Assembly (NCBI GenBank): GCA_023544645.1
Contig: JAMJFO010000006.1
Span: 47,036 to 96,861 of the forward strand
Length of the DNA stretch: 49,826 bases
Source of the DNA: Desulfobulbaceae bacterium
Lineage (GTDB): Bacteria > Desulfobacterota > Desulfobulbia > Desulfobulbales > Desulfobulbaceae
Reading direction: 5' to 3'
The notes under the pieces were generated by a model, which was not told the DNA's origin, did not search any database, and worked only from the letters and a program-made list of their open reading frames with translations. Position numbers and translations under genes: made by a program. Below are positions 15,277 through 39,103 of this stretch, piece by piece; position 1 is the first letter of the stretch; each line of letters opens with the position of its first letter.

Positions 15277-16696
<1,420 letters not shown>

Positions 16697-16704
<8 letters not shown>

Positions 16705-19557: not shown

Positions 19558-21315
19558 ATGGCAGACAATACGGAAAAAAAATCCGACGCGTCGGAGGTGA
19601 TCACCGACAAGGCGGAAGGCAAGCTCTCTGATCTCTGGAAAAAAGAGGATTACTGGGCCATCTGGCTCGGCTTTGTTCTCCTGGCCGTCGGCATGGTCAT
19701 CTTTCTGCCGCGGCCGCCGGAAAAAATGCACGAAACCATTGCCGCCGCGGAAAAAACCATGCAGGAGCAGGCAGCGATGGCGCCCTTTAAAACCATTGAA
19801 TGGCACAAGGCCAATGATGCCAAGGCAAAAATAAAGGGGACTGACCAATCCTATGCCAAAAAGATAAAAACCTTTATGACCAAAGCGCATGGCTGGAAAA
19901 CCAACCCGTCAAATGCGTTCATCATGAGCAAAGAGGAAGCCGAAGCCAAAAACGTTGCCGGCATGGCAAAGTATGAGGCGGCATTGGCCACGGAGCAGGA
20001 ACTCCTGACTGCCGCCGAATCAGCCCAGGTAACGGCTGCAGCGGCCGGCTTTCAGGATCCGGCGCTCAATGCCGCGGCAAAGGATGCCATCTCCGACTGG
20101 CGGGGCGCCAAACGGCAGGCTTCGGGAGCCAAGAAAAAAATCAGCGCCAAACCATACAACCAGTTGCCCTATCTCATTGGCCTGGGAATTGTCCTGGCGC
20201 TGTTTTTCAGTATCGGCATGCAGTTCATGTCCGGCAGCGGCATGGCGTTTATCAAGGCCTTCGGCTTTGTTTTTGTCATCGCCGTTCTTGCCTATGTCAT
20301 GGAATCCCAGGCAACCATGAAGGAGTACGGCATCGGTTATGCGGCCTGGGCCATTCTCATCGGCCTGATCATCAGCAATACCGTCGGAACACCCAAATGG
20401 GTGATGCCGGCGGTCCAGACCGAATACTACATCAAAACCGGCCTGGTCCTGCTCGGCGCCGAGATCCTGTTCGGCAAGATCCTGTCCATCGGCATTCCAG
20501 GCATCTTCGTTGCCTGGGTGGTAACCCCCATTGTCCTTATCACCACTTTTATCTTCGGCCAGAAAGTGCTCAAGATGCCCTCCAAGACCCTGAACATGAC
20601 CATTTCTGCGGACATGTCGGTCTGCGGAGTTTCAGCGGCAATAGCAACGGCCGCCGCCTGCCGGGCCAAGAAAGAGGAACTGACCCTGGCCATAGGCCTC
20701 TCCCTGGTATTCACCTCGGTGATGATGATCATCATGCCCATGGTCATCAAGGCCACCGGCATGGACCATGTGCTGGGCGGCGCCTGGATGGGCGGCACCA
20801 TTGACGCCACCGGCGCGGTGGCCGCTGCCGGCGCTTTCTTGAGTGAACGTGCCCTGTATGTGGCCGCGACCATCAAAATGATCCAGAACGTGCTGATCGG
20901 CGTCATCGCCTTTGGCGTGGCAGTGTACTGGTGCGCCAAATATGAATGCGAGCCGGGACAGCGGGTCAGCGCCATGGAAATCTGGTACCGCTTTCCCAAA
21001 TTCGTCATCGGGTTCATGGTTGCCTCCATTTTCTTCTCCATGATGTATGGGGTCATGGGCGAATCGGTGGGCTACGCGGTTCTTGACCACGGGGTTCTGC
21101 GCGGCTTTTCCCGGCTGTTCCGGGGATGGTTCTTCTGCCTGGCCTTTGTCAGCATCGGACTGGCCACCAATTTCCGCGAGCTCAAACATCATTTTGCCGG
21201 CGGCAAACCGCTCATTCTCTATGCCTGTGGACAGACACTCAACCTGTGCCTGACCCTGATCATGGCCTATATCATGTTCTTCCTGGTATTTCCTGAAATC
21301 ACCGCGGGGATCTGA
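19558..21315 (+). CDS. YeiH/UPF0324-family putative sulfate exporter with N-terminal extension
   Basis: A 585-residue membrane protein. The last 380 residues (from about 200) are the YeiH/UPF0324 (PSE) transporter core, with about ten hydrophobic spans and the motifs YYIKTGLVLLGAEILFGKI, SADMSVCGVSAAIATAAAC and GGTIDATGAVAAAGAF. The core family is about 350 residues. Here an extra N-terminal TM (about 33-51) and a charged, Ala/Lys-rich, probably helical region (about 55-195) precede it. Family members are annotated as sulfate or sulfonate exporters, without firm biochemical proof. Start: ATG with a strong GGGAGGTG site. The small gene at 21318 follows by two bases. Sigma-54 control is supported by the upstream promoter. 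Confidence 0.85.
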   Translation: MADNTEKKSDASEVITDKAEGKLSDLWKKEDYWAIWLGFVLLAVGMVIFLPRPPEKMHETIAAAEKTMQEQAAMAPFKTIEWHKANDAKAKIKGTDQSYAKKIKTFMTKAHGWKTNPSNAFIMSKEEAEAKNVAGMAKYEAALATEQELLTAAESAQVTAAAAGFQDPALNAAAKDAISDWRGAKRQASGAKKKISAKPYNQLPYLIGLGIVLALFFSIGMQFMSGSGMAFIKAFGFVFVIAVLAYVMESQATMKEYGIGYAAWAILIGLIISNTVGTPKWVMPAVQTEYYIKTGLVLLGAEILFGKILSIGIPGIFVAWVVTPIVLITTFIFGQKVLKMPSKTLNMTISADMSVCGVSAAIATAAACRAKKEELTLAIGLSLVFTSVMMIIMPMVIKATGMDHVLGGAWMGGTIDATGAVAAAGAFLSERALYVAATIKMIQNVLIGVIAFGVAVYWCAKYECEPGQRVSAMEIWYRFPKFVIGFMVASIFFSMMYGVMGESVGYAVLDHGVLRGFSRLFRGWFFCLAFVSIGLATNFRELKHHFAGGKPLILYACGQTLNLCLTLIMAYIMFFLVFPEITAGI

Positions 21316-21679: not shown

Positions 21680-22717
21680 CTACCCTGAGGGCAAAAGGGA
21701 ATCCATTACAGGAATGAAAACGGAAAAGGTAGCGCCTTTTCCCGGGGTGCTTTTGACCTTAACCGTACCTCCCAATTCTTTTATGGACCGTTCAACAATT
21801 GCCAGGCCCAGGCCGGGACCATTGGTTTTTGTCGTGTAGAACGGCTTGAAAATTTTCTCCTGTTCACCGGCGGAAATGCCTGTTCCATGGTCCTGTACGG
21901 CAAACATGATTGTACCGTTGCTGTTTTTTATACTTACCAGAATGGTGTCACCTGCCGCAGACGCCTCCAAAGCATTTTCGACGAGATTGTAGAGACAGGC
22001 CCTTATCCTGGATAGATCAGATACAATTTCCGGCAAATGCTCATCATGGCGCAACTTGATGGAAATCTGCCGTTGATCGGCAAAATCGGCAAAATCTGTT
22101 ATTACTGCTTCGGCAATGATGTTGATATCACAGGGTTCGAGCCTCAGTGGTCCGGGGTTGGAAAAATTCAAGAAAATGGCGGTAAGGTCATTCAACTTTT
22201 TGACCTCTTCTTCAATGATCCCCAGGAACTCGCTCATCAATTCGTCCTGGTATTTTTTCTTTAAAAAGGAAGTGGCCATTCCTATGGAATGAAGAGGATT
22301 CCGGGTTTCATGAGCTACTCCGGCAGCCATGTCGCTCAACTCCATCAAACGGTCGCTTTTTGCCTTCTCCTGGTCGGAGCGGACACGTTCGTTGAACGTA
22401 TACTTGATGTCCTTGACCATCAGGTTGAACGCTTCAATGAGCTCGCCGATATCGTCGCCGCACGATTCTTTATAGACTACGCATTCCCGGCAATCCTTGA
22501 TGTTTTTGGCGAACTCGCCTGTAACCTCGCCATGACAGCAGGTGCCGGCAATGGACCAGCAACGCAGTTTGCCGAAAGCCGGACAATTATTTTTTTTGCA
22601 GTTAAGCCGTTCCCAGCAGCGAATGATTTTCGGGTTCTCCGCTTCAACATCATAATCGCCTGACTGGATGGCCAGCATTTTTTCTCTTAATGATTTCAAA
22701 CCTTTGAACTTTTTCAT
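21680..22717 (-). CDS. Soluble histidine kinase with N-terminal two-CW cysteine domain
   Basis: A 345-residue kinase without membrane segments. The N-terminus has nine cysteines, C34, C40, C45, C53, C60, C61, C76, C79 and C86, including two Cys-Trp pairs (IRCWERLNC and LRCWSIAGTC). This matches the two-CW domain pattern seen in signalling proteins of delta-proteobacteria, probably a metal- or cluster-binding redox sensor. A short HAMP-like linker (GDDIGELIEAFNLMVKDI) leads to HisKA with H136 (AAGVAHETRNPLHSIG) and a HATPase domain (DHGTGI, GPGLGLAIV). It is the last gene of a kinase-regulator-kinase operon, 15 bases after the NtrC-type regulator, so both kinases may feed one regulator. Confidence 0.9.
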   Translation of the reverse strand: MKKFKGLKSLREKMLAIQSGDYDVEAENPKIIRCWERLNCKKNNCPAFGKLRCWSIAGTCCHGEVTGEFAKNIKDCRECVVYKESCGDDIGELIEAFNLMVKDIKYTFNERVRSDQEKAKSDRLMELSDMAAGVAHETRNPLHSIGMATSFLKKKYQDELMSEFLGIIEEEVKKLNDLTAIFLNFSNPGPLRLEPCDINIIAEAVITDFADFADQRQISIKLRHDEHLPEIVSDLSRIRACLYNLVENALEASAAGDTILVSIKNSNGTIMFAVQDHGTGISAGEQEKIFKPFYTTKTNGPGLGLAIVERSIKELGGTVKVKSTPGKGATFSVFIPVMDSLLPSG

Positions 22718-22732: not shown

Positions 22733-24067
22733 TTAGCGGTTCATCAAGTCCAGATTTTTCATTTTGGTGCGCAACTGCTTCCTTGAGATACCTAAAAGCA
22801 CGGCAGCCCGGGACTGATTCCAGGCTGTTGCATCAAGCGCTTTGGTGATTATCCTTTTTTCAGTTTCCGGGAGATTGAATTCTCCTGGCTGGTCGCATTC
22901 ATCCTCGCCGAAGATTTTTAATTTACACGGTAAACACTCCATATTGATGGAATCATAATTGCACAATATCACAGCCCGTTCCAAAACATTCTCAAGCTCG
23001 CGCACATTGCCCGGCCAGTCATAACTCTTGATGACCTTCAGGACCTCAGGTTCAAATCCCCGGATGTCCTTTTTATTTTTGGCATTAAAGTGATCAAGAT
23101 AATGTTTGGCCAGCAGGGGAATATCTTCCGTCCTCTCCCGCAATGGGGGGATGCGGATGGTTATGACATTCAATCGGTAGTACAGGTCTGACCTGAATTC
23201 TCCTTTTTCCACATCTGCTTCAAGGTCGCGGTTGGTGGCGGAAAGAACCCGGACATTGACCTGAATCTTATTTTTACCACCAACCCGGCGGATTTCCCGT
23301 TCCTGGAGAAACCGCAGCAATTTTTTTTCCAGCGCATAATCGATATCACCAACCTCATCAAAAAACAGGGTTCCTCCCTGCGCCATTTCGATGAGACCGA
23401 TCTTACGGTCCAGGGCTCCGGTGAAAGCCCCTCTTTCATGACCGAACAGCTCGCTCTCCATAAGTTCGGACGGAATTGTCGTGCAGTCAATGGGGATAAA
23501 AGGATTGTCAACTCTGAGCGAAGAATAATGAATGGCCCTTGCCACCATCTCCTTGCCGGTTCCCGACTCGCCGAGGATGAGAATATTGGCGTCGGTCTTG
23601 CTCACCCGGCGGATCAGGGAAAAAACCTCCTGCATGGGTTTTGACTTGCCGATTATGTTCATGAACTGAAAATGGCGGCCCGATTCGTCATCCGAAAGTA
23701 TTTGGCCTGAAAGAAGCAGTTCCTGAACAACGTTTTCCAGCAGCTCAAGATTCACCGGTTTGGTCAGGTAGGTATAAGCCCCCTTGCGCATCGCGTTGAC
23801 GGCCAGCTCAATGGTGCCGTAGGCGGTAAGCAGGACAAACGGTATTCCCGGGGTAATGGTTTTGATTTTTTCGAGCAGCTGTTCACCGCTCATGCCCGGC
23901 ATTTTATAATCGGAAATGACCAGGTCGTAATGCTTCTCCTTGAATCTGGCAAAGGCTTCTTCCCCGGAACGTGCGGTATCCACCCGGATTCTGTCGCCGC
24001 TCAGGGCAGCGGACAGAACCTTGAGTGAATTTATTTCATCGTCAACAGCAAGAATCGTGTAACTCAT
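22733..24067 (-). CDS. NtrC-type sigma-54-dependent response regulator
   Basis: A 444-residue regulator with receiver (phospho-acceptor D53 in VISDYKMPG), AAA+ domain (Walker A GESGTGKE at 166-173, GAFTGA at 213-218, GGTLFFDEVGDID) and a C-terminal Fis-type helix-turn-helix ending NQSRAAVLLGISRKQLRTKM. All key residues are present, so it should activate sigma-54 promoters when phosphorylated. It overlaps the upstream membrane kinase gene by 26 bases and precedes the two-CW kinase by 15. The sigma-54 site at 26135, driving the DsrE-like genes on the other side of the divergent region, is its most likely target. Confidence 0.95.
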   Translation of the reverse strand: MSYTILAVDDEINSLKVLSAALSGDRIRVDTARSGEEAFARFKEKHYDLVISDYKMPGMSGEQLLEKIKTITPGIPFVLLTAYGTIELAVNAMRKGAYTYLTKPVNLELLENVVQELLLSGQILSDDESGRHFQFMNIIGKSKPMQEVFSLIRRVSKTDANILILGESGTGKEMVARAIHYSSLRVDNPFIPIDCTTIPSELMESELFGHERGAFTGALDRKIGLIEMAQGGTLFFDEVGDIDYALEKKLLRFLQEREIRRVGGKNKIQVNVRVLSATNRDLEADVEKGEFRSDLYYRLNVITIRIPPLRERTEDIPLLAKHYLDHFNAKNKKDIRGFEPEVLKVIKSYDWPGNVRELENVLERAVILCNYDSINMECLPCKLKIFGEDECDQPGEFNLPETEKRIITKALDATAWNQSRAAVLLGISRKQLRTKMKNLDLMNR

Positions 24068-25751
24068 CGGTTAAGCTCTCTCCCTGGGGTAAAATCAGAG
24101 TAAAGATGCACCCCTTGCCGGGGGTGCTCTCGACTACGAGATCGCCATTATGCCAGCGGGCAATTTTCTGTGAAATAGCCAGACCAAGTCCGGTCCCCCT
24201 CGTTTTGGTTGTATAAAAGGGATTGAAGATCTGCCTGAGGTCTTCAGGTGCAATTCCCGGCCCTGTGTCGGAAACAGAGATGATGACGTTGCCGTCGCTG
24301 TACCTGGCTGCAACGGTCACCGCACCCTCACCTGTGATTGCATCAAATCCATTGATGATCAAATTGATCAGCACCTGTTTAATCTGACTGTAGTCGCAGA
24401 ATATTTCAGGGATGTTTTCCGCGATGGCAAACTGCAAGTCTATATGCTGTTCCTCTGCTTCCTGGCTAAGGAGCGCACCTATTTCACGGATCAGCCGGGC
24501 GATATCGCTTGGCGCCTTTTCCAGCTGCACCGGTTTGGCAAAACCCAGCAGGGTTCCGGTAAGCTTGTTGATCCTGGCCACCTCGTCAGAGATTATCCTG
24601 GTAAACTCCGAAATAAGGATCCCGTCATAATTTTTGCCGATATAATTTGCTGCCCCGCTTATGGCATTCAACGGATTTTTTATTTCATGGGCCAGGGTGG
24701 CGGCCAGCTCTCCGGTCGCGGCCAGCCGGCAGAGCCTTTCCTGCTCCTCAACCGCATAGGAAAGTTTCACCACCATTTCATTGAAAGCATTGGATAATTC
24801 CCCGATCTCGTCACTGCTCTCAACATCAATATATTTGTTGAGCCCTTCATCCACCAATTTATCCACCGATTCCTTCAAACGGAGGATCGGATGGATAAGC
24901 TTGATGATGGTACCAAGACCGAAAATCAGGACCGAGGTGAAAATAGCCAGCATCAGTAAAAAGATCAGCAGGCGCTGCTCCTCGATATCAATGGAGTTTA
25001 AATTTATATAAAAAACAATAGTCCCGAAGATAATCATCGGTATTGCCGTAAGCAGACTGAATGAGGTCAAAATCCGATAAATGATGCTGCCGCCCATCTG
25101 GCTGTACATGGCCTTATTAATACAGATAAACAGCATCATAAAACCAATGGGGCGGAAGAGGTGGCCGTGCAGCCACGTCGATGACCCTATGGGAGCGGGG
25201 AAAAACAGAAAAATGGCTGAAATACAGATAAAAAGGTAACCTGTCGCGGCGAAAAAAAGACTTTTTTGCTTGATGCGATAATAGGCTGCCACGTGAAGGA
25301 TGCAGACATGACCCGCCAGAAAAGCAATGCTTATCCATACCAATGGCCTGAATATGCCAAACAAGGGAAAGGTTTTGTAAACTTCAGGCACCAGTAAGAC
25401 GAAGAGCGGGAGATAGAGTAACAGCAGCCATGTCTTTTTCTGCGGCCTGGAAGATGAGATGGCAATAGTGAGGATCAGCAGACCAAAACAATAGCTGACG
25501 AGGGTCTGATACAGGAGGTTAAGATCCAGGTCGGCAGCATGGATAAAAGCATGGATGAGACTGCTCATACCCATGATAATGAATCCGCCTGCCATCAGGA
25601 ATAAGCGGCTTTTCTGCTCCTGACTGCATTCTTCCATCCTGTCCCGGGATGCCCTGAATAAGCGCCCGGCAATTGAAATGCAGATCAGGAAAATCAAAAA
25701 TTCTTCCCAGTTGTGATAATGTAAAAAAAATTCCTTGTGCGAATAATCCAT
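24042..25751 (-). CDS. Membrane histidine kinase with multi-span sensor and HAMP domain
   Basis: A 569-residue kinase. The first 285 residues contain about eight hydrophobic spans (for example 17-29, 50-71, 83-100, 108-122, 133-156, 167-185, 200-212) and then a pair (228-250, 261-285) flanking a short external loop. A HAMP domain (286-340), HisKA with H355 (LAATLAHEIKNPLNAISG) and HATPase (DTGPGI, GTGLGLAIS) follow. The N-terminal region resembles MASE/7TM-type sensors, which detect membrane or lipid-soluble cues; no exact family is claimed. The ATG at 25751 has no Shine-Dalgarno sequence and an in-frame stop lies two codons upstream, so the true start may be leaderless or further in. Confidence 0.88.
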   Translation of the reverse strand: MDYSHKEFFLHYHNWEEFLIFLICISIAGRLFRASRDRMEECSQEQKSRLFLMAGGFIIMGMSSLIHAFIHAADLDLNLLYQTLVSYCFGLLILTIAISSSRPQKKTWLLLLYLPLFVLLVPEVYKTFPLFGIFRPLVWISIAFLAGHVCILHVAAYYRIKQKSLFFAATGYLFICISAIFLFFPAPIGSSTWLHGHLFRPIGFMMLFICINKAMYSQMGGSIIYRILTSFSLLTAIPMIIFGTIVFYINLNSIDIEEQRLLIFLLMLAIFTSVLIFGLGTIIKLIHPILRLKESVDKLVDEGLNKYIDVESSDEIGELSNAFNEMVVKLSYAVEEQERLCRLAATGELAATLAHEIKNPLNAISGAANYIGKNYDGILISEFTRIISDEVARINKLTGTLLGFAKPVQLEKAPSDIARLIREIGALLSQEAEEQHIDLQFAIAENIPEIFCDYSQIKQVLINLIINGFDAITGEGAVTVAARYSDGNVIISVSDTGPGIAPEDLRQIFNPFYTTKTRGTGLGLAISQKIARWHNGDLVVESTPGKGCIFTLILPQGESLTDELHDSCC

Positions 25752-26134: not shown

Positions 26135-26150
26135 TGGCATCTTCATTGCA
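26135..26150 (+). promoter_or_regulatory. Sigma-54 promoter for the DsrE-like / YTD-type genes
   Basis: TGGCAT at 26135-26140, five bases, then TTGCA at 26146-26150. Only the last base of the -24 box departs from consensus, and GG and GC are 12 bases apart. The expected start is near 26161, giving a leader of about 245 bases before the first gene at 26406. The span from 25780 to 26134 holds no convincing gene; an open frame there lacks a ribosome site and any recognisable sequence. Confidence 0.75.
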
Positions 26151-26405: not shown

Positions 26406-26678
26406 ATGGCAAAAAAAATTGCAGTTTTAGTAAGGGACAGGCAAAGCGAGGCGTTGCGCATGGCCATCGGAATTATTTTGCTGGACGATATTATCGAAGT
26501 TTATATTCTGGACAAAAAAATTGAAGAGACCGAGCAGAACCAGCTGTACCTGGAAACTATCCAGGATCTGGAGATAAAAGCATACACAAACGTCGAGGGA
26601 AATTATACAATAGAGTACCTGCCGACAGAAGAAATTGCTCGGCAACTGTCCGACTATGACCATGTACTCGCGTATTAA
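26406..26678 (+). CDS. DsrE-family-like small protein without cysteine
   Basis: A 90-residue soluble protein. The N-terminus (AKKIAVLVRDRQSEALRMAI followed by GIILLDDIIEVYILD) has the DsrE/TusD fold pattern: a first beta strand, a helix with R-x-A-x-G, and a second strand ending in acidic residues. It has no cysteine at all, so it cannot itself carry persulfide; in DsrEFH/TusBCD complexes some subunits are likewise inactive partners. GGAG precedes the ATG. It is first in a run of three small genes (gaps of 34 and 138 bases) that together recall the DsrE-DsrF-DsrH grouping, a sulfur-relay complex of the cytoplasm. The family call comes from the pattern and the context. Confidence 0.6.
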   Translation: MAKKIAVLVRDRQSEALRMAIGIILLDDIIEVYILDKKIEETEQNQLYLETIQDLEIKAYTNVEGNYTIEYLPTEEIARQLSDYDHVLAY

Positions 26679-26712
26679 GTATTAAGCTTCAAATCCCATA
26701 AGGAGTCGGTTG

Positions 26713-26880
26713 ATGAAAAGTTTATTTATACTCAAAAAAGATCCGGACCCGACCATAAATACAATCATGGAGGAAAGAGCAAAAGAAGCAGAGATCTATA
26801 TCGTTGATCTCCGAAAGGATCAGGATTACGATGCACTTGTTGAATCCATAGAGTTATGCGACCAGGTCATGACCTGGTAA
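26713..26880 (+). CDS. DsrH/TusB-like micro-protein
   Basis: A 55-residue frame with a good AGGAG ribosome site, starting MKSLFILKKDPDP and ending CDQVMTW. The DsrH/TusB family is short (about 95 residues), starts with a beta strand, and ends with a conserved hydrophobic-Trp tail (for example ...QMAW in TusB), which this end resembles. The single cysteine is five residues before the C-terminal tryptophan. The central region is shorter than in TusB, so it may be a minimal or diverged form. Its place between two DsrE-like genes supports a role as the third subunit of a sulfur-relay complex; this remains inference. Confidence 0.55.
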   Translation: MKSLFILKKDPDPTINTIMEERAKEAEIYIVDLRKDQDYDALVESIELCDQVMTW

Positions 26881-27018
26881 GGACACCCGCAAATGTGCAG
26901 GAATAAAGGAGCTGCTGGATGAAGATTCACCTGCACAAGGAGCCTGGCAGAGAAGCAATTTCACCGGCGCGAGATGCAGCCCAGGGGATGACAATCAATA
27001 AACAACGGGGAATCAACA

Positions 27019-27321
27019 ATGAAACTCGGTATTCTTGTCAACACAAATGATCATTTACCAGCAATAGTCGGCATTGTGCGATCCGCAACACGCAAAGGCC
27101 ATGAAGTAAACCTGTTCGCAATGGATGACGGAACAAGGCTTCTTGAGGAAAAGCCCTTTGTATCGCTCATTGAGATGCCCGGAGTTCTCATGAGCTACTG
27201 CGACCACAGTGCACAGGAATTAAACGTCAAAACCGAAGGACTTTCCTCTTCAATAGAGCGTAGCAGTCAATTCAGCAATGCCCGGATGAACCATACTTCC
27301 GACAAAGTACTCGTCATGTAA
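27019..27321 (+). CDS. DsrE-family sulfur-relay protein with conserved cysteine
   Basis: A 100-residue cytoplasmic protein. It begins with the DsrE-type strand-helix-strand (KLGILVNTNDHLPAIVGIVR, then KGHEVNLFAMDDGTRLL) and carries its single cysteine, C61, in MSYCDHSAQELNVKTEGL, the position and style of the DsrE/TusD active-site cysteine (C followed by S and a Gly-containing turn). The C-terminus SSQFSNARMNHTSDKVLVM fits the last helix and strand. In the Dsr/Tus relays this cysteine accepts sulfane sulfur from a TusA-like carrier; a TusA is encoded at 30863. Ribosome site ACGGGG. A GT-C glycosyltransferase gene follows after about 95 bases. Confidence 0.75.
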   Translation: MKLGILVNTNDHLPAIVGIVRSATRKGHEVNLFAMDDGTRLLEEKPFVSLIEMPGVLMSYCDHSAQELNVKTEGLSSSIERSSQFSNARMNHTSDKVLVM

Positions 27322-27417
27322 CCCCCGGTGCGATGATATAATAATCCCGAAACTCGCCCGGTCAGGACAACCATTTTCCCCGCACCATATAAAAAAATTT
27401 CACAGAAAGGGTAAAAA

Positions 27418-29097
27418 GTGATCCGGCTTGGCAAACTGGAAGGGATCCTGCTCATATCATTTCTCCTTTTTTTTTCTTTCTCCCTCCTGTATATCTTCCG
27501 GTCATTTGATAATAATACGCTGGTCAGCTGGAAATGGATTTTTGGCGACAGGGGATTTTCGGCCATCCTCCCGTTCCTTTTGCTGGGAACAGCCTTTTCC
27601 CTGGTAATTTCCCGGCAGATCCCGCTGGAAAAATACCCGGCTCCTGTTCTTGCTGTCATTGCCGGAACTTCCGTGCTGCCACTGTGGAGCGAACCGGAAC
27701 TATTGCTTGATTCCGGCCGTTACTTTCTTCAGGCGAAATCCCTGTCAGAGTATGGGTCCATCTACTTTATCCGCGAATGGGGGCAGGCAATCTCGAGTTG
27801 GACGGATATGCCCCTCGTACCTTTTCTCTACGGACTGATTCTCAAAAGCGGGAACGAATCAAGAACAGCCATACAGCTCTTCAACACCATCATTTTTATT
27901 CTTACCGTTTTCCTTACGTATAAAACAGGTGCCGGCCTCTGGAACAGGGAGCTGGGTTTTTATGCCGGGCTTCTTCTGGCAGGCATGCCTTATCTGCTTA
28001 TACAAGTTCCCCAAATGCTGGTAGATGTCCATGCCATGTTTTTTCATATCCTGGCGGTTTACTGCTTTGTGCAGGCAATAAGATCCCGGGACCATTTCTC
28101 CCTTTTCCTTTCCACTTTGACATTGGTGCTGGCTGTATTCGTAAAATTTTCAACCTGGCCGATGCTGGCGTTATTACCTGTGACCGGTTTCATCATCTAC
28201 CTGCAGGACGACCGTCAGCAAACCATTCTCAAAAGAGCCGCTTTTATCCTCCTGTCGGCAGCTCTCATTGCAATAATTATCCTTGTTTTCAAGTTTCCGG
28301 TATTTTACCAGCAAATACAAATACTCCTCACCTATCAGCGGCCGGCGTTGACACTCTGGGGCGAGGGGACAATTTCTTCCTTTCTCTTTCAATGTCACCC
28401 CTTTATTGCCATTCTTGCCCTGTACTCTATTTTCCGGGCCTGTCAATTAAGGGATAAACCCTTCCTTATTGTTGCCCTGTATTTGTTATTGATTGTTTTT
28501 CTGCAAATACAACGCATTCGTTATATGATCCCCCTGCTGCCTTTTATTGCTATGATGGCTGCATACGGAATTGTCGCCTTCCGGGAGACGCAGGTCAGAA
28601 GGTTCTGTGGATGCATGATCGTCTCATCATCCCTGGCTATTCTTTATGTCGTCTACCTGCCCTTTTTGCACACCACGAGCATGATGAATATCAAAATGGC
28701 AGGAGAAGCGCTCAACAACCTTGATGATGAATTTATCAATGTAACAGTCCTGCCCCAGGAAAACTCGGAAGGCAGCACTTTTATCGCCATTCCCCTGCTT
28801 GATCTTTTCACTGAAAAACAGATACTCTCCCGGCAAAGTTGGCCCCATACCAAACCCGATCACCTCTCTGCCCACTCACCCTTACTGTTCACCTGGATGC
28901 AGAACAAACCTTCGTATTATGAATTGCCTAAAGATCAAAACCCGGTCCTCAGGCCGTTGATAGTTATTTCATCGGGAAATGTAAGCGACGAGGCTTACCG
29001 CCATCTGCTCGATACAATCCCGTCAACTGACTTCAGTCACTTTACCCGCCACTCGGGTGTCTTTCGTTACCGGACAATGGTTTCGGTATACAACTGA
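27418..29097 (+). CDS. GT-C (ArnT/PMT-like) membrane glycosyltransferase
   Basis: A 559-residue integral membrane protein with a GTG start, preceded by AAAGGG. It has an estimated 10-12 hydrophobic spans and then a soluble C-terminal region of about 120 residues (from about 435). The first large loop contains LLDSGRYFLQAKSLSEYGSIYF, where the acidic residue plus R-Y matches the catalytic D(x)RY region of the GT39/GT83 family, and VKFSTWPMLALL is typical of the PMT2 core. Such enzymes use polyprenyl-phosphate sugars as donors. It sits between the DsrE-like genes and yedE, and its role in a sulfur cluster is not obvious. It could belong with the glycan-type genes at 32-39 kb. Confidence 0.75.
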   Translation: MIRLGKLEGILLISFLLFFSFSLLYIFRSFDNNTLVSWKWIFGDRGFSAILPFLLLGTAFSLVISRQIPLEKYPAPVLAVIAGTSVLPLWSEPELLLDSGRYFLQAKSLSEYGSIYFIREWGQAISSWTDMPLVPFLYGLILKSGNESRTAIQLFNTIIFILTVFLTYKTGAGLWNRELGFYAGLLLAGMPYLLIQVPQMLVDVHAMFFHILAVYCFVQAIRSRDHFSLFLSTLTLVLAVFVKFSTWPMLALLPVTGFIIYLQDDRQQTILKRAAFILLSAALIAIIILVFKFPVFYQQIQILLTYQRPALTLWGEGTISSFLFQCHPFIAILALYSIFRACQLRDKPFLIVALYLLLIVFLQIQRIRYMIPLLPFIAMMAAYGIVAFRETQVRRFCGCMIVSSSLAILYVVYLPFLHTTSMMNIKMAGEALNNLDDEFINVTVLPQENSEGSTFIAIPLLDLFTEKQILSRQSWPHTKPDHLSAHSPLLFTWMQNKPSYYELPKDQNPVLRPLIVISSGNVSDEAYRHLLDTIPSTDFSHFTRHSGVFRYRTMVSVYN

Positions 29098-29396
29098 CCT
29101 GTTCCTCCCTCCCTTTCACCTTTATCGTATACTGACCGGGTAATTGTTCGAAACAGGACAGCGCTCCACACCTGCTGTCCCAAATGGGCCTGCAGGCAGA
29201 GTTAATTTGGCATCTTTCATCTGCCGACCCCTCTCGGCCAGAAAGTTTTATTTTCGCAAACCGCGCTCCACAGGGAACAAAATGGAAATGAACATCTTTC
29301 GAATCTCCGGAGCCCATCAATGGCACGAACCTTGCTGTAAATGGTGCAGATCTACCACAAAGCCTGCACCGAAAAGGATTTCTTGAGGAGAGTTTG

Positions 29397-30836
29397 ATGG
29401 AAATAGCAATACCGAGAAAAAATATCATCTGGGCCTATGTCATAGTTGGTTTTTTCGGCCTGGTCAGTGTGATTACCTTCGCAATGCATGAATATTACGC
29501 CTATCTCTCCGCCTATCTCTGGTTCGGCTTTATTTACGGCATGTGCCTTCAATACGGCAGATTCTGCTTTGCCTCCGCATTCAGGGACCTTTTTGCCGTA
29601 GGGGTGCCGAGAATGGTTGTCGGCATCATGATTGCCACACTCCTCTTTGCCATTACATCCAACCTGGTCGCCGCTACAGGATGGAGCACCTTTCACGCCG
29701 CGCCGGTCAGTATGCACGCCCTCATCGCCGGTTTGATTTTCGGTGTCGGCATGGTCTTTGCCGGCGGCTGCGCATCAGGGTCACTCTACAAGACGGGTGA
29801 GGGCAATGGCGTTTCCCTGCTGGTCATCCTGTCCATCAGTGCCACCCAGGCGCTCTTTGTTGACTGGGGCGGTGTGTTCAACAAATTTGTTCCCGCCTCC
29901 TGGCACGAATCAGCCCTGCAGAAAGGATTGCCGGATTCAATCAATGTCGGCGACGGCTGGGTGGATCAGTATCTGGCCGGCTATGTCTGGAACCAGCCGG
30001 TCAAGACCTATGCCCAGACCCTGGGTATGCAGGATGATACTCTCACCGGCGCGCTCCTGGGCAATGCCTTTGCCGGCGTTTTTATACCGGCGGTCATCAT
30101 TCTGGCCATTGTCTATATCTTCTGGGTCAGAAAAAACTATATCAAAAAAATCAGCGCAGAAAAGGGAGGCTCCATAACCTACAAAGATCACCTGAACGGG
30201 TTCTGGAGCATGATTATGGCCTCGAAAAGAACTTCCATCGCCGGCCTGCTGCTCGGCATAGCCTGCGGGCTGCAGATGTTTGTCATCGAAGGGCTGCGCA
30301 TGAAATTCGGGGTGAAAAACGCGGGCACCATACTTGAACGGCTGGGACACGATTTCGGCATCTCAGCCAAGGGCACGGTTTTTGATCCCGGCTACTGGTA
30401 CGTAACCACCCAGGAAGCGCAGTGGGTCGGCTGGACTCTGCAGAAACTCGGGCTCAACAATATGGACAATATCTATTTCGGCTGGGTCAACGGTATTCCC
30501 AACCCGGCGATGAACCCGGCCGACTGGATGAGTGTGGCCCTTATCGGCGGGGCCGCAGTCATGGCCCTGCTGCATGGTGAATTTAAATTTAAGGCGCCGA
30601 CCAGGGAACTGGCATTCTGGGCGATTCTGGGCGGTTTTTTCATGGGCATAGGCTCACGTCTTGCCCTGGGCTGTAATGTGGGCGCTTTTTTTGTTCGCAC
30701 AGCCATGGGAGACATGTCCGGTTGGCTCTTCGGTCTCGGTATGATCGGCGGGGCATTTATAGGGGTTAAAATATTTAACTGGTACACGGAACGAAAAATG
30801 GCCAAGGAAATGGCCGGCTTTGATCTGGACCTGTAA
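29397..30836 (+). CDS. yedE: YedE/YeeE-type (TsuA-like) sulfur-compound transporter
   Basis: A 479-residue membrane protein starting at the ATG at 29397 with GAGGAG upstream. It has two YeeE/YedE halves. The first contains YGRFCFASAFRDL (near residue 50) and FAGGCASGSLYKTGEG (near 123); the second contains GSRLALGCNVGAFFVRTAMGD (near 425). These conserved cysteines in Gly-rich turns are where TsuA passes thiosulfate through the membrane. An inserted region of about 140 residues between the halves is longer than in the shortest members. The substrate here (thiosulfate, sulfane sulfur or selenium compound) is not set by sequence. tusA follows after 26 bases. The 299 bases upstream hold no gene; one sigma-54-like sequence there has wrong spacing. 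Confidence 0.9.
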   Translation: MEIAIPRKNIIWAYVIVGFFGLVSVITFAMHEYYAYLSAYLWFGFIYGMCLQYGRFCFASAFRDLFAVGVPRMVVGIMIATLLFAITSNLVAATGWSTFHAAPVSMHALIAGLIFGVGMVFAGGCASGSLYKTGEGNGVSLLVILSISATQALFVDWGGVFNKFVPASWHESALQKGLPDSINVGDGWVDQYLAGYVWNQPVKTYAQTLGMQDDTLTGALLGNAFAGVFIPAVIILAIVYIFWVRKNYIKKISAEKGGSITYKDHLNGFWSMIMASKRTSIAGLLLGIACGLQMFVIEGLRMKFGVKNAGTILERLGHDFGISAKGTVFDPGYWYVTTQEAQWVGWTLQKLGLNNMDNIYFGWVNGIPNPAMNPADWMSVALIGGAAVMALLHGEFKFKAPTRELAFWAILGGFFMGIGSRLALGCNVGAFFVRTAMGDMSGWLFGLGMIGGAFIGVKIFNWYTERKMAKEMAGFDLDL

Positions 30837-30862
30837 CAACGAATCATTCGGAGGAACGTATT

Positions 30863-31114
30863 ATGGCAATGACATTTACCAAAAAAGAACAAGGTATCTA
30901 CTCTCTGGACGTAACCGGCTATGTCTGTCCCCATCCACAGATATATACCAAAAAGGCGCTGGAAAAAATACACGGCGGCGATGTGCTTGAAGTGACGTTT
31001 GACAACCCATCTTCATCGGAATCGGTTTCAGCCATGTGTGATTCCAACGGCAATGAAATCATAGAAAAGATTGCCGAAGGCGGCAAATTCACTTTCAGGA
31101 TCAAAAAGGCATAA
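30863..31114 (+). CDS. tusA: TusA-family sulfur carrier
   Basis: An 83-residue protein with the TusA/SirA signature. After the strand SLDVTGYVCPHPQIYTKKAL, cysteine C22 lies in the C-P-x-P motif (C22-P-H-P25), the site that carries persulfide sulfur. A second cysteine, C59 (SAMCDSNG), is near the third strand. Strong GGAGG ribosome site. It directly follows yedE, the pairing seen across bacteria in which the transporter delivers sulfur to a cytosolic carrier. The nearby DsrE-type proteins are plausible partners. Two small membrane proteins follow. Confidence 0.95.
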   Translation: MAMTFTKKEQGIYSLDVTGYVCPHPQIYTKKALEKIHGGDVLEVTFDNPSSSESVSAMCDSNGNEIIEKIAEGGKFTFRIKKA

Positions 31115-31198
31115 CATCCTGAATAAAATCTTAATGACCGGCTTTCTTCACCGCCCTGGTACATTCGAACCCGGTCATCGGCATAAATGGGAGATAAA

Positions 31199-31390
31199 GT
31201 GAAACAGCATCTTTTTGTCATTATTGTAATCGTAACCGGTTTCAGCACTTTTTTACTGGGCTACAGTCTCCCCTCTTTTCTTGAAGTTGGTTTTGGCGGC
31301 GGCGATTCCGCGAGCATAACCCCCGATGCCGAAAATGAAGCCGATCTCATGAAATATTATGAGGACTTATACAAGGACGTTGAAGAATAG
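31199..31390 (+). CDS. Small single-span membrane protein of the sulfur cluster (first of pair)
   Basis: A 63-residue protein from the GTG at 31199, which has GGGAG at ideal spacing; an ATG at 31187 in frame would add four residues. One N-terminal hydrophobic segment (VIIVIVTGFSTFLLGYSLPSF) is followed by a Gly-rich stretch and an acidic tail ending YYEDLYKDVEE. No cysteines and no known domain. It resembles the neighbour at 31400 in layout: TM, Gly-rich stretch, acidic tail with a Y/F-x-S/D-L-x-x-E-x-E type end. It could be one of the two conserved small hypothetical proteins of the YTD-type cluster. Confidence 0.7.
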   Translation: MKQHLFVIIVIVTGFSTFLLGYSLPSFLEVGFGGGDSASITPDAENEADLMKYYEDLYKDVEE

Positions 31391-31399
31391 GGTGCAAAC

Positions 31400-31606
31400 A
31401 TGAAATCAGGTCCCAAAATAATTGTTATAGTTTTGATCGCGCTTTGTTCTTTTTACGGGGGCTACACTTTTTCAGCGCGAACCGGCACCGAGCCGGGTTA
31501 TTTCGATGCGGTCGAAGCAGCCGGTTACGGTGGCGGCGGCAGTGAAAAAATCGAAGGCATCAGTGACGAAATGAACGAGTTTTATCAATCTTTACGCGAA
31601 GAATAA
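31400..31606 (+). CDS. Small single-span membrane protein of the sulfur cluster (second of pair)
   Basis: A 68-residue protein, nine bases after its neighbour. It has an N-terminal TM (about residues 6-25, IIVIVLIALCSFYGGYTFSA), then a linker with AAGYGGGGSEKIEG and a short amphipathic acidic tail ending FYQSLREE. One cysteine lies inside the TM. Its layout strongly recalls the 31199 product, suggesting an ancient duplication or a hetero-oligomeric pair. No function is known. They sit between tusA and a universal stress protein gene on the same strand. Confidence 0.7.
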   Translation: MKSGPKIIVIVLIALCSFYGGYTFSARTGTEPGYFDAVEAAGYGGGGSEKIEGISDEMNEFYQSLREE

Positions 31607-31639
31607 CCATTCATAGAAATCTAATCGCCGGGGATATTC

Positions 31640-32107
31640 ATGAAAAAAATTTTGCTCGCAGTGGATGACACCAAAAGTTCGATTAACATAATCGATACAA
31701 TGTCGGAAATTTTTTGCACCTGCATGCCCCGGGAGGTTGTGCTGCTGTATGTGCAAAAAATGATTTCCGGCAAATCAGTTATGGATGATCTGGTTGTCAG
31801 CGCCAGCGAATGGGAAACCCTCAAAGACTCGCTGGCGGATACCGCGTATCAGGAAATAAAGGAAAAAAAAGCACAAAAGGTCATTGACTACTTCAGCGGG
31901 ATCCTTCGCAAAAAGGGCATAACAGGGATCATCCCGGTGGTGCGGGAAGGTCATGCTGCCGAGGAAATCCTGAAAGTTTCCCAAGAGGAAGAAGTTGATA
32001 TGATCATCATGGGGTGCCGGAGCAGCCGGTTGCACAACCTTTTCATGGGGAGTGTCAGTCGTGAAGTCATCAACAATACGGAAAAATCCGTCCTGCTGGT
32101 AAAATGA
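31640..32107 (+). CDS. Universal stress protein (UspA) family protein
   Basis: A 155-residue single-domain Usp protein. It starts KKILLAVDDTKSS and has the C-terminal nucleotide-loop theme IIMGCRSSRLHNLFMGSVSREVI followed by KSVLLVK; the G-x2-x9-G-S pattern is mostly kept, so ATP binding is plausible. It lies 33 bases after the small membrane protein gene, and its stop overlaps the next start by four bases (ATGA at 32104-32107), linking the sulfur cluster to the following oxidoreductase gene in one transcript. Confidence 0.88.
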   Translation: MKKILLAVDDTKSSINIIDTMSEIFCTCMPREVVLLYVQKMISGKSVMDDLVVSASEWETLKDSLADTAYQEIKEKKAQKVIDYFSGILRKKGITGIIPVVREGHAAEEILKVSQEEEVDMIIMGCRSSRLHNLFMGSVSREVINNTEKSVLLVK

Positions 32108-33522
32108 ATGTCGTTCTAGGCGCAGGTCTTTCAGGGCTGTCAGCCGCAGCATGGTTAACCAGGGCGGGCAAACCCGTAGCAGTTATCGAAAAAAACAGGC
32201 ATGTCGGTGGTCTGGCAAGGACAATAACCCACGGTGACTTTCACTTTGATCTGGGCGGACACCGTTTTCTGACGGAAAATCAACAGGTTCAATCCTTTGT
32301 TGAGGAACTGCTCGGCAACGCTCTCCTGAAAGTACCGCGAAAAAGCCGGATATATATCAACGGCAGGCATATCGATTACCCTCTTTCCCCGGCCAACGCG
32401 GTTTTCGGAATGGGCCTGGCCGCAACCGGAGCAATTCTCCTCGATTACGGCAAGGAAAAATGGCGCAATATCATCCGCCCCCGTCAACTCCATTCCCTGG
32501 AAGACTGGGTGGTCTCTCAGTTTGGTCGAACCATTTTCAATCTGTATTTCAAGAACTACAGTGAAAAAGTGTGGGGCATTGATTGCCGGCATATCAGCAA
32601 GGACTGGGTGGCCAAACGAATCGACGGTCTTTCACTCCGGCAGTTTATCCAGCATTCACTTAAGTTTCATACCCAAAAAAATAAAACATTGACCGATACA
32701 TTTTTTTATCCCCGCAAGGGGATCGGTCAATTATCAGACCGGATGAGCGACCTGGTCAAAAGCAGGAATCCCGTCACGACCGGGGCCGGCGTCGAACGAA
32801 TTTTTCATGCCCATGGCAGTATTACCGGCATCCAGTTCAGTGACGGCGGAAAGACGCATTCCATGCAGGGTTCCACCTATATATCAAGTATTCCGGTTAC
32901 CAGGTTGTTGGAAAAAATTATTCCCTCCCCGCCCGGTCCTGTCCGCAGAGCCGCGGCCAGGATACGTTTCCGTTCCCTGGTGATAGTCGCCTTATTTCTC
33001 AACAAACAGAGCATGACCGATCTTACCTGGATGTATTTTCCCGGCAAAGAGATCCCTTTCGGCAGGATCCACGAACCCAAGAACTGGAGCAGCGATCTGG
33101 CTCCTGCCGGGAAATCCCATATCATAGCGGAATATTTCTGCAACCGGGACGACCGAACCTGGCAGTCTGCCGATGACGCCCTTGCCGGATCAACCGCCCA
33201 TCATCTGCAGAAACTCGGTTTCTTCGATCAAAAAGATATACTTGACAGCTGTGTACTGAGGATTCCCTACGCCTATCCGGTCTTTGACCTCCATTACCGG
33301 AAACATCTGAAGATCATCACCGATTTTCTAGACGGATTTGCCAACCTCCATCTGGTCGGCAGGAGCGGTATGTTCAGTTACCTCAACATGGACCAGGCCA
33401 TGGAAAGCGGTATTGTTGCCGCCCAACAGATTATACAGGACTGCAGAAAGAAAGATCCTGTTCCGGCGACGAGTGATAATATATTCATTCCCGGTCACCT
33501 CCTGCAGCCGGATTATTCCTGA
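32104..33522 (+). CDS. FAD-dependent oxidoreductase (UDP-galactopyranose mutase-like / protoporphyrinogen-oxidase fold)
   Basis: A 472-residue flavoprotein with a Rossmann GAGLSGLSAA (6-15) and VIEKNRHVGGLART for FAD binding, then DLGGHRFLT. The central segment (FNLYFKNYSEKVWGIDCRHISKDW) is typical of a group of NAD(P)/FAD oxidoreductases related to UDP-galactopyranose mutase, usually encoded with glycosyltransferases. The C-terminus GRSGMFSYLNMDQAMESG is the second FAD contact. The substrate is unknown. It overlaps the usp gene start by four bases and shares one base with the next gene (33522), so it belongs to one operon. Confidence 0.8.
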   Translation: MNVVLGAGLSGLSAAAWLTRAGKPVAVIEKNRHVGGLARTITHGDFHFDLGGHRFLTENQQVQSFVEELLGNALLKVPRKSRIYINGRHIDYPLSPANAVFGMGLAATGAILLDYGKEKWRNIIRPRQLHSLEDWVVSQFGRTIFNLYFKNYSEKVWGIDCRHISKDWVAKRIDGLSLRQFIQHSLKFHTQKNKTLTDTFFYPRKGIGQLSDRMSDLVKSRNPVTTGAGVERIFHAHGSITGIQFSDGGKTHSMQGSTYISSIPVTRLLEKIIPSPPGPVRRAAARIRFRSLVIVALFLNKQSMTDLTWMYFPGKEIPFGRIHEPKNWSSDLAPAGKSHIIAEYFCNRDDRTWQSADDALAGSTAHHLQKLGFFDQKDILDSCVLRIPYAYPVFDLHYRKHLKIITDFLDGFANLHLVGRSGMFSYLNMDQAMESGIVAAQQIIQDCRKKDPVPATSDNIFIPGHLLQPDYS

Positions 33523-34964
33523 TGAAATGCACCCTTATCATACCGGCCTGGGAACCCGAGGATATATTCCCGAGCAGGACGGCCGCCTCCCAGATCAATT
33601 ACTGGCAGCCGCTGGGCACCCTCTCCGTCGCCGCCTCCCTGCAGCAGGCCGGTCATGAAGTTGTATTTCTCAACGGCGCTTTTTTAAACCATACCGAGAT
33701 CCTTGAGGCTGCCGCAACCTCCGGCCCGGATTTTATCGGCCTCTATTCAACCACCTTTGGCTGGCCAAAGGCGAAAAAAACCGCCCGGGATCTGAAGGCC
33801 GTTCTCCCCGATGTTTTTATCACCGTGGGCGGGCCTTTTCCCATTGCCCGCCAGGAGCAATGCCTTCAAGAGTGCCGATGGATCGATGCCGTTGTCACCG
33901 GCGAAGGAGAAATACCTGCCGTGGCCATGGTGGAAAATCTGGCTGCCGGCATGAGCATGGCCGGAATTAACGGCGTAGTCTACAGGGAAGGGCCGCGGAT
34001 TGTCAAAAACCCTCCCCAACCCCTTATAATGGACCTTGACACCCTGCCGTTTCCGGCCCGGGAACTCCTTGGCAAAGCGGACTCGTATATCCCGGCTCCG
34101 GCAACATACAAACGTAAACCGGTGGCGGTCATCATGACCTCGCGCGGCTGCAACCGGAAGTGTATATACTGCTTCCAGATCGATAAAAGCCGCAAAAGCG
34201 GCGTCCGCTATCGAAGTATCGAAAATGTGCTGGCGGAAATTGAATTATGCCTTTCCCAGGGCTACCGCGAGATAAAATTCATTGATGAGACATTGGCGGC
34301 GGATTATGGTCGGGCCATGCAGCTCGCCCGGGAAATAACGGCCCGTGAGCTCGATTTCACCTGGTTTGCTTCAGCATGTGTCAATCAGGTGGATAAACCG
34401 TTACTGGCTGCCTTCAAGGAAGCCGGCTGCTGGGCAATACTGATGGGCGCCGAAAGCGGAGTGCAGAAAAACCTCAACACCATCCGCAAGGGAATTACTC
34501 TTGAGCAGGTCCGCAAAGCGGTCCGGGCGGCCCAGGATGTCGGCATAAAGGTCTTCACACCCTTTCTTTTCGGCATCCCGGGCGAAACCTTTGCCGAAGG
34601 ACTCAAGACCATCGATTTTGCCTGCGACCTGAATCCGGATGTGGCCAATTTCCATTGCCTGACCCCCTTTCCCGGTACTGAACTGTATGACAACATCGAG
34701 CAGTACGGCACGATTTCCGATGATCTTACCGATTACACCTACCAGGGAGCTGCTTTTACGCCTTATAGCATGAGCCGTGAAGAAATCGCTGCCCTCAGGC
34801 ATATAGCGTTTAAGAAATTTTATTCAAGACCCCGTTTTCTGCTGCGCAGCATAGTCAACCTGAGAGGGCTCCATGACCTTCGCGCAGCAGCCACCGGCAT
34901 AAAAAGCCTTTTCTGGATATGGGTTACTGACGCGATTTTCAAGAAAAAAACCTGTTGCCGTTAA
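33522..34964 (+). CDS. B12-binding-domain-type radical SAM protein
   Basis: A 480-residue protein. The N-terminal 180 residues form a cobalamin-binding-type Rossmann domain (PLGTLSVAASLQQAGHEV, GPDFIGLYSTTFGWPKAKK, VTVGGPFPIA) but lack the DxHxxG lower-ligand histidine, as in class B radical SAM methylases. The radical SAM core has C210-x3-C214-x2-C217 (SRGCNRKCIYCFQ), then KFIDETLA, GAESGVQKNLNTIRKG and FLFGIPGETF. Methylation or another radical rearrangement of a lipid, glycan or small metabolite is typical of this class; the substrate is unknown. It starts on the last base of the preceding gene. Repeat copy 2 begins 44 bases after its stop. Confidence 0.85.
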   Translation: MKCTLIIPAWEPEDIFPSRTAASQINYWQPLGTLSVAASLQQAGHEVVFLNGAFLNHTEILEAAATSGPDFIGLYSTTFGWPKAKKTARDLKAVLPDVFITVGGPFPIARQEQCLQECRWIDAVVTGEGEIPAVAMVENLAAGMSMAGINGVVYREGPRIVKNPPQPLIMDLDTLPFPARELLGKADSYIPAPATYKRKPVAVIMTSRGCNRKCIYCFQIDKSRKSGVRYRSIENVLAEIELCLSQGYREIKFIDETLAADYGRAMQLAREITARELDFTWFASACVNQVDKPLLAAFKEAGCWAILMGAESGVQKNLNTIRKGITLEQVRKAVRAAQDVGIKVFTPFLFGIPGETFAEGLKTIDFACDLNPDVANFHCLTPFPGTELYDNIEQYGTISDDLTDYTYQGAAFTPYSMSREEIAALRHIAFKKFYSRPRFLLRSIVNLRGLHDLRAAATGIKSLFWIWVTDAIFKKKTCCR

Positions 34965-36726: not shown

Positions 36727-37809
36727 TCAATTTGTAAGCGATAGATAGTTTTTTACCAGTGCGGGATATAATCTATAATTAAACAGAATATTCATCATCA
36801 TATAACATTCATGGGAACAGTAGCATTCCTTGTTTTTAATGGCTGCCAGCGCCTGGGAAGTCTGCGGAGAATGTAAAATCCGCTGCAGATCATAATCAGT
36901 CTCCCGGACATTGCCCAGCTTGCGGGAAAACGATTCGCAGGGGTACACATCACCGGTTTCCGTCACCACCAGAGTAACCCGGCCGGCATAACAGGGCACC
37001 AGCTGCCTCTGCTCTCTTTGTGTCCGATATATCAGCCTGCGCTGAAGGATATCCTGGGCCGTCTTAATGCGCGCCCCTTGAAAGCGGTAGCGTCCCGCCC
37101 GGTTCTTTTTCATCCCGGACTCCATCTTTGAGACAGTCTTCAGGTACTTGCCTAAATCAACCTTTTTGAGTGATCTGTCGTGCACCTGTCCCCGGATCAG
37201 GGAAAGAGTGTGTGTACTGACACCATCCATTCCTTTGACAAGTTCGATAAGTTCATCCTGGCAGTCCTGATTGGCGGCACAGAAGACGGTGTTTATGCCC
37301 AGTTCAAAATTCTCGTACCGCCGCACAAGACCTTTGAGCAGGGTATAGGTTTTAAGGGTGCGCTTATACGCTCCGTCAACCCCGCGCAGGGTATCGTGAA
37401 TGGGTTCAGGGCCGTCAAGAGAGAGCTTGACCGTCACCACACTTCTGGGACAGTTATCCAGTATGGCGGCTGTTTTACGACAGATAACCTCCGGCATCAT
37501 CCCGTTGGTCGGCAGCAGTATCAAGGCGGGCTTGTTGCGTGCATAAAAAATATCCACTACTTCGACCAGGTCCTCACGCAAAAAAATTTCACCTCCAGAA
37601 AATGCCAACCAGAGGAGCCTGCCCAGAGAAGATGCCATTTGTTCAATTTCAGCCAGAGACAGCTCAGAAGAGTTGTTGTCCCGGTCCCGTGAGAGGTAAA
37701 AACAGAAAGGACACCGCGCATTGCAGCGCCTGGTAAGAAAATATGTCAGCTGGACAGGGGCGCTTTTCCGGATAATGGAACCGATATGACGAAACGGCGA
37801 GTAGTTCAT
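36727..37809 (-). CDS. Radical SAM/SPASM-type protein
   Basis: A 360-residue enzyme with the radical SAM motif C29-x3-C33-x2-C36 (TRRCNARCPFCFYL), GGEIFLREDL and SLDGPEPIHDTLRG. The C-terminal cysteine set (CYAGRVTLVV..., GDVYPCESF, then CYCSHECYMM) fits a SPASM or twitch domain with auxiliary iron-sulfur clusters. SPASM enzymes commonly modify ribosomal peptides or make cofactors. I find no short precursor peptide or PqqD-like gene beside it. It overlaps the upstream GT2 gene by four bases (37806-37809), so the two are coupled. It converges with the nucleotidyltransferase gene, 90 bases away. Confidence 0.88.
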   Translation of the reverse strand: MNYSPFRHIGSIIRKSAPVQLTYFLTRRCNARCPFCFYLSRDRDNNSSELSLAEIEQMASSLGRLLWLAFSGGEIFLREDLVEVVDIFYARNKPALILLPTNGMMPEVICRKTAAILDNCPRSVVTVKLSLDGPEPIHDTLRGVDGAYKRTLKTYTLLKGLVRRYENFELGINTVFCAANQDCQDELIELVKGMDGVSTHTLSLIRGQVHDRSLKKVDLGKYLKTVSKMESGMKKNRAGRYRFQGARIKTAQDILQRRLIYRTQREQRQLVPCYAGRVTLVVTETGDVYPCESFSRKLGNVRETDYDLQRILHSPQTSQALAAIKNKECYCSHECYMMMNILFNYRLYPALVKNYLSLTN

Positions 37810-38831: not shown

Positions 38832-39103
38832 ATCTGCTTTCCCGCTCTCGTGTTCCAGAACGTGTTCCGATCCTGTTTCTTCCTGTCTCATTTGGGCCAT
38901 AATCCACGTAATAAAAGTCCCATATTGGCCATCCATGCCCCTTCTTTTACCTTTATTCACTGCATTTCCGGGCCTTGGCACATTGGTATATATATTGCTT
39001 TGTCCTATGTACCAGATGACAGCGGCATGAATACACATGAATGCAATGAAGCATTCATAAATACTCATGCAAAAAAGAAGCACGATTTCAAGCGAGGTGG
39101 AAA

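Follow-up and report, generated by a model that had tools for sequence, protein, structure and literature searches.

The window, a 49,826-nucleotide stretch of a Desulfobulbaceae genome, carries a sulfur-related gene cluster of the YTD (YedE-TusA-DsrE-like) type. YTD clusters combine yedE, tusA and dsrE with two or three chp genes (PMC13047784; PMC13293266; PMC12998232). A first-pass annotation of positions 26406-32107 had named a DsrE-like trio, yedE, tusA with a C22-P-H-P motif, two small membrane proteins and a universal stress protein (Usp) gene. All of these are open frames at those coordinates, and the YTD-type label holds, since the interval contains yedE, tusA and dsrE together with two genes of chp type. 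The full conserved set, however, spans positions 19558-40141 (about 20 kb) and extends past the annotated interval on both sides. We class the locus as a divergent YTD cluster with an undescribed companion gene set. The relay genes are:

26406..26678, + strand: dsrF-like gene (chp1 of YTD, DsrEFH type II), from hhalign and structure match
26713..26880, + strand: dsrH-like gene (chp2 of YTD), 55 amino acids, from hhalign
27019..27321, + strand: dsrE (type II) with predicted catalytic Cys61, from Pfam DsrE and hhalign
29397..30836, + strand: YedE/YeeE-family sulfur-compound importer, 479-amino-acid subtype (Sulf_transp, 1.5e-38)
30863..31114, + strand: TusA, C22-P-H-P (Pfam TusA, 3e-21)

Family scans of the single 26406 and 26713 protein sequences gave no usable match, and the 27019 protein matches Pfam DsrE with E=3e-4, slightly below the gathering score. 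Structure and profile comparisons were used because DsrE and DsrF gave weak matches or none in sequence-profile searches of the PDB. In profile-profile comparison (hhalign) with protein sets drawn from the canonical YTD clusters of the host order, the 26406 protein matches the canonical chp1 family (E=4.6e-16), the 26713 protein the chp2 family (E=1.1e-17), and the window dsrE product the canonical dsrE family (E=5e-25). Cys61 of DsrE is unchanged across 20 aligned sequences. The AlphaFold model of the 26406 protein has a predicted local distance difference test score of 92.9. Its top structural matches are DsrE/DsrF folds, which make up most of the ten best rows, and it superimposes on Allochromatium vinosum DsrF (2hy5_B) with a Z score of 10.1 and a root mean square deviation of 2.0 over 88 residues. 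The model of the 55-residue protein has a half-Rossmann fold; its Z score of 4.2 against 2hy5_C is level with that of unrelated half-Rossmann folds and is non-specific.

The trio is DsrF-, DsrH- and DsrE-like, in that order, and its members are homologs of YTD chp1, chp2 and dsrE, in line with its earlier assignment to DsrE/DsrH-like proteins and with a DsrF fold for the first member. The dsrE, chp1 and chp2 products have been identified as a DsrEFH-like complex (PMC13047784, 2026), named "DsrEFH type II" in PMC13293266 (2026). Cable-bacterium DsrEFH-II transfers sulfur one way to DsrC in vitro (PMC13293266). The window set shares the DsrF-like subunit fold and the single DsrE cysteine with DsrEFH type I of A. 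vinosum. It is, however, non-orthologous to type I by sequence, its DsrH-like protein has 55 residues and lacks a cysteine, and proteobacterial carriers have it alongside DsrE type I.

The window YedE matches the transporter StYeeE (6leo) with E=8.5e-20. Its residues C57, C125 and C426 align with C22, C91 and C293 of StYeeE, and all three are unchanged in every one of 91 sequences. The window YedE has the three transport cysteines that are conserved in the YeeE/TsuA thiosulfate transporter. Homology to 6leo, the C22/C91/C293 triad and a TusA-family partner are likewise features of the TsuA-TsuB (YeeE-YeeD) thiosulfate uptake system of Spirochaeta thermophila and E. coli. The window YedE differs in length (479 versus 339 residues), in its link to DsrAB carriers and DsrEFH, and in the presence of extra small membrane proteins. 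The sulfur relay from YedE through TusA to DsrE proposed previously fits the predicted catalytic cysteines YedE C57/C125/C426, TusA C22 and DsrE C61.

By its named relatives the host falls within Desulfobulbales. On contig C69 (G000:C69, L041 5992-8808) it carries another YTD cluster, a canonical one, in which yedE is divergent from tusA-dsrE-chp1-chp2. The two YedE proteins are 25% identical, and the window DsrE/F/H proteins have about 28-33% identity to the canonical set. We sampled genomes of the host order (n=146), the phylum (n=395) and Gammaproteobacteria (n=185), and carriers of the window-type cluster (n=52). Only two other genomes of the order have a dsrE closely related to that of the window (61-62%). 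Profile search detected canonical YTD dsrE in 131 of the 146 genomes of the order; an initial DsrE search had under-counted it, at 43/146. A separate YedE system of the host (G000:C102, L045 3757-11412) consists of an ArsR-type regulator, YedE, a TusA-like protein, a histidine kinase, NtrC and a rhodanese.

A scan with the window YedE identified 80 loci from Desulfobulbales, Nitrospirota, Alpha-, Beta- and Gammaproteobacteria, and Rokubacteria; the conserved gene set recurs over these loci, in at least four phyla. The common gene order, widely preserved, is [HK1-NtrC-HK2] // (tusA1)-dsrF-dsrH/dsrE-PMT-yedE-tusA-SM1-SM2-(Usp)-FAD-B12-radical-SAM, where HK denotes a histidine kinase and SM a small membrane protein. 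Genes for a SPASM radical-SAM enzyme, a GT2 glycosyltransferase and an exported tandem rhodanese lie near the main gene run in related loci. Gene families were tallied in a subset of 47 well-flanked loci: PMT occurs in 45, SM1 in 41, B12-radical-SAM in 40, SM2 in 39, SPASM in 37, DsrE in 36, rhodanese in 33, FAD in 32 and GT2 in 28. From yedE to the B12-radical-SAM gene, the intergenic gaps of the window are at most 72 bases, and two gene pairs overlap. The companion genes are:

27418..29097, + strand: PMT/ArnT-like membrane glycosyltransferase (GT-C), 559 amino acids (PF13231, 2e-9)
31187..31390, + strand: SM1, small single-span protein, predicted N-in/C-out, acidic tail; conserved family
31400..31606, + strand: SM2, small single-span protein, motif GYxxSAxTGxEPGYFxAVEAxGYG; conserved family
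31640..32107, + strand: universal stress protein (PF00582, 1.5e-17)
32104..33522, + strand: FAD oxidoreductase, PRK07208 type (NF005548, 1e-121, above cut-off)
33522..34964, + strand: B12-binding radical SAM enzyme, HpnJ/BchE-like (Pfam B12-binding and Radical_SAM)
36727..37809, - strand: radical SAM/SPASM enzyme (PF04055 and PF13186; in 45 loci)
37806..39113, - strand: GT2 glycosyltransferase with membrane segments, MftF-like (PF00535, 5e-29; in 36 loci)
39104..40141, + strand: exported tandem rhodanese with CQTGTRS loop and Lys-rich C-terminal coil (PF00581, 5.6e-34; in 44 loci)

The PMT gene sits between dsrE and yedE; it is a conserved member inside the interval of the first-pass annotation, which had omitted it. 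The window cluster shares five gene families with the published YTD or yeeE-tusA-dsrEFH type II cluster: yedE, tusA, dsrE with the catalytic cysteine, chp1 and chp2 (PMC12998232; PMC13047784; PMC13293266). It differs from this cluster in gene order, in its larger YedE subtype and in its sigma-54 sites, and adds PMT, SM1, SM2, FAD, radical-SAM, GT2 and rhodanese genes. The window cluster likely belongs to published subtype 1 (mostly Nitrospirota and Pseudomonadota). We found no open-licence paper that joins YTD/DsrEFH-II with the companion genes; subscription papers and supplements were outside the search. In the YedE tree, Desulfobulbales rows nest with Nitrospirota rows with supports of 95-98, more than one change per phylum is required, and YedE proteins from extended canonical YTD loci form a separate branch. 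Lateral transfer is a possible history of the locus, and binning errors in metagenome-assembled genomes may be an alternative.

The two small membrane proteins had been taken for the hypothetical proteins of YTD. That role belongs instead to the 26406 and 26713 genes (PMC13293266; PMC13047784; hhalign), and SM1 and SM2 are a pair distinct from the YTD hypothetical proteins and rarer than them. The chp1 and chp2 matches given above, together with the rarity of SM2 (1 of 395 genomes in the phylum sample), rule out the earlier equation. An SM1-like protein is present in 12 extended canonical YTD loci (E=2.5e-9 to a marginal 0.02). In the sampled genomes SM2 occurs only beside yedE-tusA-SM1. The search for SM1-like proteins gave no positive f5-type locus. 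Most related loci keep the pair, with invariant residues, and SM1 or SM2 is found in 69 of 73 loci.

An ortholog of the B12-radical-SAM enzyme (56-78% identity) is present as a single copy in 51 of the 52 carrier genomes, in nine of which it lies away from the yedE locus. In the Gammaproteobacteria sample, SM2 occurs in five genomes; the radical-SAM ortholog occurs in four, each of which also has SM2 (p=1e-7). About 26 of the 146 genomes of the host order have the ortholog. Some canonical YTD clusters also carry most of the companion set: in several families, tusA-dsrE-chp1-chp2-GT2-SPASM faces radical-SAM-(FAD)-Usp-SM-tusA-yedE-PMT, so that the set is joined to canonical YTD. Other genomes of the order contain stand-alone PMT-rSAM-GT2-FAD cassettes (L183-L185) beside porin-like genes and with no relay adjacent. 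Two of the three adjoin an LPG-synthase-TM-like gene, and these neighbors suggest a membrane product. The window GT2 resembles MftF of the mycofactocin system, the SPASM protein resembles peptide and cofactor radical-SAM families, and the B12 enzyme resembles HpnJ of the hopanoid (HpnJ, HpnB) modification enzymes. All of these scores are far under the curated cut-offs, and the likenesses are therefore resemblance only.

The window-type cluster is linked to Dsr genomes. DsrA scores above the curated cut-off in 44 of the 52 carriers, a further four have DsrA matches that are partial or divergent, and on contig C76 of the host dsrAB is followed by dsrD. DsrD is above cut-off in eight carriers, all Desulfobulbales-type, and DsrE type I in 21, mainly proteobacteria and Rokubacteria. 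The cluster therefore spans reductive and probably oxidative Dsr-type genomes. We rejected the possibility that it replaces DsrEFH type I in proteobacterial carriers, since most of them have DsrE type I too; the window-type cluster supplements it.

The regulatory genes and sites, with the adjoining YeiH-family gene, are:

19486..19501, + strand: sigma-54 (-24/-12) site, 5' of the YeiH-like gene, TGGCACCCCCATTGCT
19558..21315, + strand: YeiH-family putative sulfate exporter (PF03601, 4.9e-44; 9 of 47 well-flanked loci)
21680..22717, - strand: histidine kinase HK2, Cys-rich N-terminus (Pfam; conserved in Desulfobulbales and Nitrospirota loci)
22733..24067, - strand: NtrC-type sigma-54 activator (Sigma54_activat, 6e-69; 21 loci)
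24042..25751, - strand: membrane histidine kinase HK1 (Pfam; synteny)
26135..26150, + strand: sigma-54 site, 5' of the dsrF-like gene, TGGCATCTTCATTGCA
29321..29336, + strand: sigma-54 site, 5' of yedE, TGGCACGAACCTTGCT

These three sites are the only strict sigma-54 matches in the whole window, and each lies closely upstream of a gene. Orthologous sites are present in the two closest members of the order, and the site upstream of dsrF has orthologs in L039, L040 and other loci. A sigma-54 site is predicted 5' of yedE in 17 of 20 NtrC-type loci versus none of 20 LuxR-type loci, with a Fisher p=2.6e-8 that overstates the case because related loci are non-independent. The YeiH-like gene is a probable associate of the locus. 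Between the sigma-54 site and dsrF, the window has an inverted repeat with a 12-base stem (26316-26350; catgcccggcac / gtgccgggcatg). The sister locus L040 has a second tusA between its sigma-54 site and dsrF; none is there in the window. The Cys-rich N-terminal segment of HK2, CWE..C..CPA..CW..GTCC, is possibly a redox or sulfur sensor. A further NtrC/histidine-kinase pair at 15277-19306 is divergent from the YeiH-like gene, and the CxxCH motif of its kinase could bind heme c.

We consider it probable that the locus encodes a thiosulfate or sulfane-sulfur import relay that feeds the Dsr pathway and is linked to a glycolipid-like membrane modification that has gone unrecognised. Support for the sulfur half of this proposal is good, and the membrane-modification half is one that we infer. 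The exported rhodanese would mobilise sulfane sulfur outside the membrane. By homology to StYeeE, YedE would bring the sulfur in via its three conserved cysteines, and TusA C22, again by homology, would accept it. Homology to biochemically tested cable-bacterium proteins suggests that C61 of DsrE in DsrEFH-II then receives the sulfur, and the co-occurrence of the genes points to its use by DsrC and DsrAB. SM1 and SM2 may be accessory subunits of this YedE subtype and might anchor the rhodanese to it: docking is possible because SM1 and SM2 have acidic tails and the rhodanese C-terminus is a Lys-rich coil. PMT, GT2, the B12-radical-SAM, SPASM and FAD enzymes would form a second module, most likely making a modified, glycosylated membrane lipid. 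Co-occurrence and family resemblance suggest that this lipid is needed by sulfur uptake or co-regulated with it. In Desulfobulbales and part of Nitrospirota, the conserved sites point to an NtrC system with sigma-54 promoters that would switch both operons.

Several points weigh against this proposal. The substrate, direction and product are deduced here from genes alone, and thiosulfate did not persulfidate the recombinant proteins (PMC13293266). PMT and GT2 could glycosylate proteins or polysaccharides instead of a lipid, not every locus has Usp and YeiH, and the docking idea is built solely on charge and synteny. A more specific version is tentative: the PMT, GT2, B12-radical-SAM, SPASM and FAD genes, with SM1/SM2 where present, may produce a membrane glycolipid, or a cofactor resembling a lipid, that has yet to be described and on which DSR-linked bacteria depend for taking up zero-valent sulfur or keeping it at the membrane. 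If it is true, the YTD cluster is only half of a larger pathway.

The first-pass annotation had suggested that the host disproportionates sulfur by means of this cluster. Desulfolithobacter does show higher levels of YTD proteins while it disproportionates thiosulfate (PMC9751629), and all S0 disproportionators of PMC12998232 have YTD. Even so, disproportionation is not indicated by the YTD and Dsr genes surveyed here, and we regard it as unlikely. Canonical YTD dsrE is so frequent in the order that its presence says little about disproportionation, and the carriers of the window-type cluster include many proteobacteria that have DsrE type I, as sulfur oxidisers typically do. PMC12998232 and PMC13293266 both reject YTD as a stand-alone marker; the latter detected it in just 40% of the disproportionators in culture and argued that it functions in sulfur oxidation. 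The near-obligate pairing of the relay with the B12-radical-SAM enzyme, in a set that holds two radical-SAM genes along with FAD and glycosyltransferase genes, could also mean that the TusA/DsrE persulfide escapes oxidation and that the radical-SAM enzymes incorporate it into a lipid or cofactor containing sulfur. The strong tie to DsrAB genomes is unexpected for a purely biosynthetic pathway, and with stand-alone cassettes free of an adjacent relay, we find this explanation quite unlikely.

It is very doubtful that the radical-SAM, FAD and PMT enzymes act on SM1 and SM2 as peptide substrates, either as glycoproteins or in the manner of ribosomally synthesised and post-translationally modified peptides. 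They are small conserved proteins near two radical-SAM enzymes, an MftF-like GT2 and PMT, and the SPASM protein resembles peptide maturases. However, PMT and B12-radical-SAM genes, mostly together with GT2 and FAD genes, occur in the f5 clusters and the stand-alone cassettes with no SM match, which disfavors an obligatory substrate role. The least probable explanation is that the glycosyltransferase and radical-SAM genes belong to an unrelated cell-surface cluster neighboring YTD by chance. Such genes are frequent in surface-glycan regions and can stand alone, as the cassettes do, but the same set lies beside the relay across several phyla, and the radical-SAM gene is kept even if unlinked, with matched presence in Gammaproteobacteria.

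The role of YTD/DsrEFH-II is disputed between a disproportionation marker and a sulfur-oxidation marker in sulfate reducers. The window locus places the same relay in dsrD genomes and in DsrE type I genomes. The companion genes offer direct knock-out targets, which could settle the purpose of the relay and how sulfur crosses the membrane.

Two further genes of the window lie outside this set. Positions 35632-36636 encode a nucleotidyltransferase-fold protein, so far found only in near relatives (e.g., L077). The protein at 7886-8677 has a twin-arginine translocation (Tat) signal and may resemble the C-GCAxxG-C-C type redox family.

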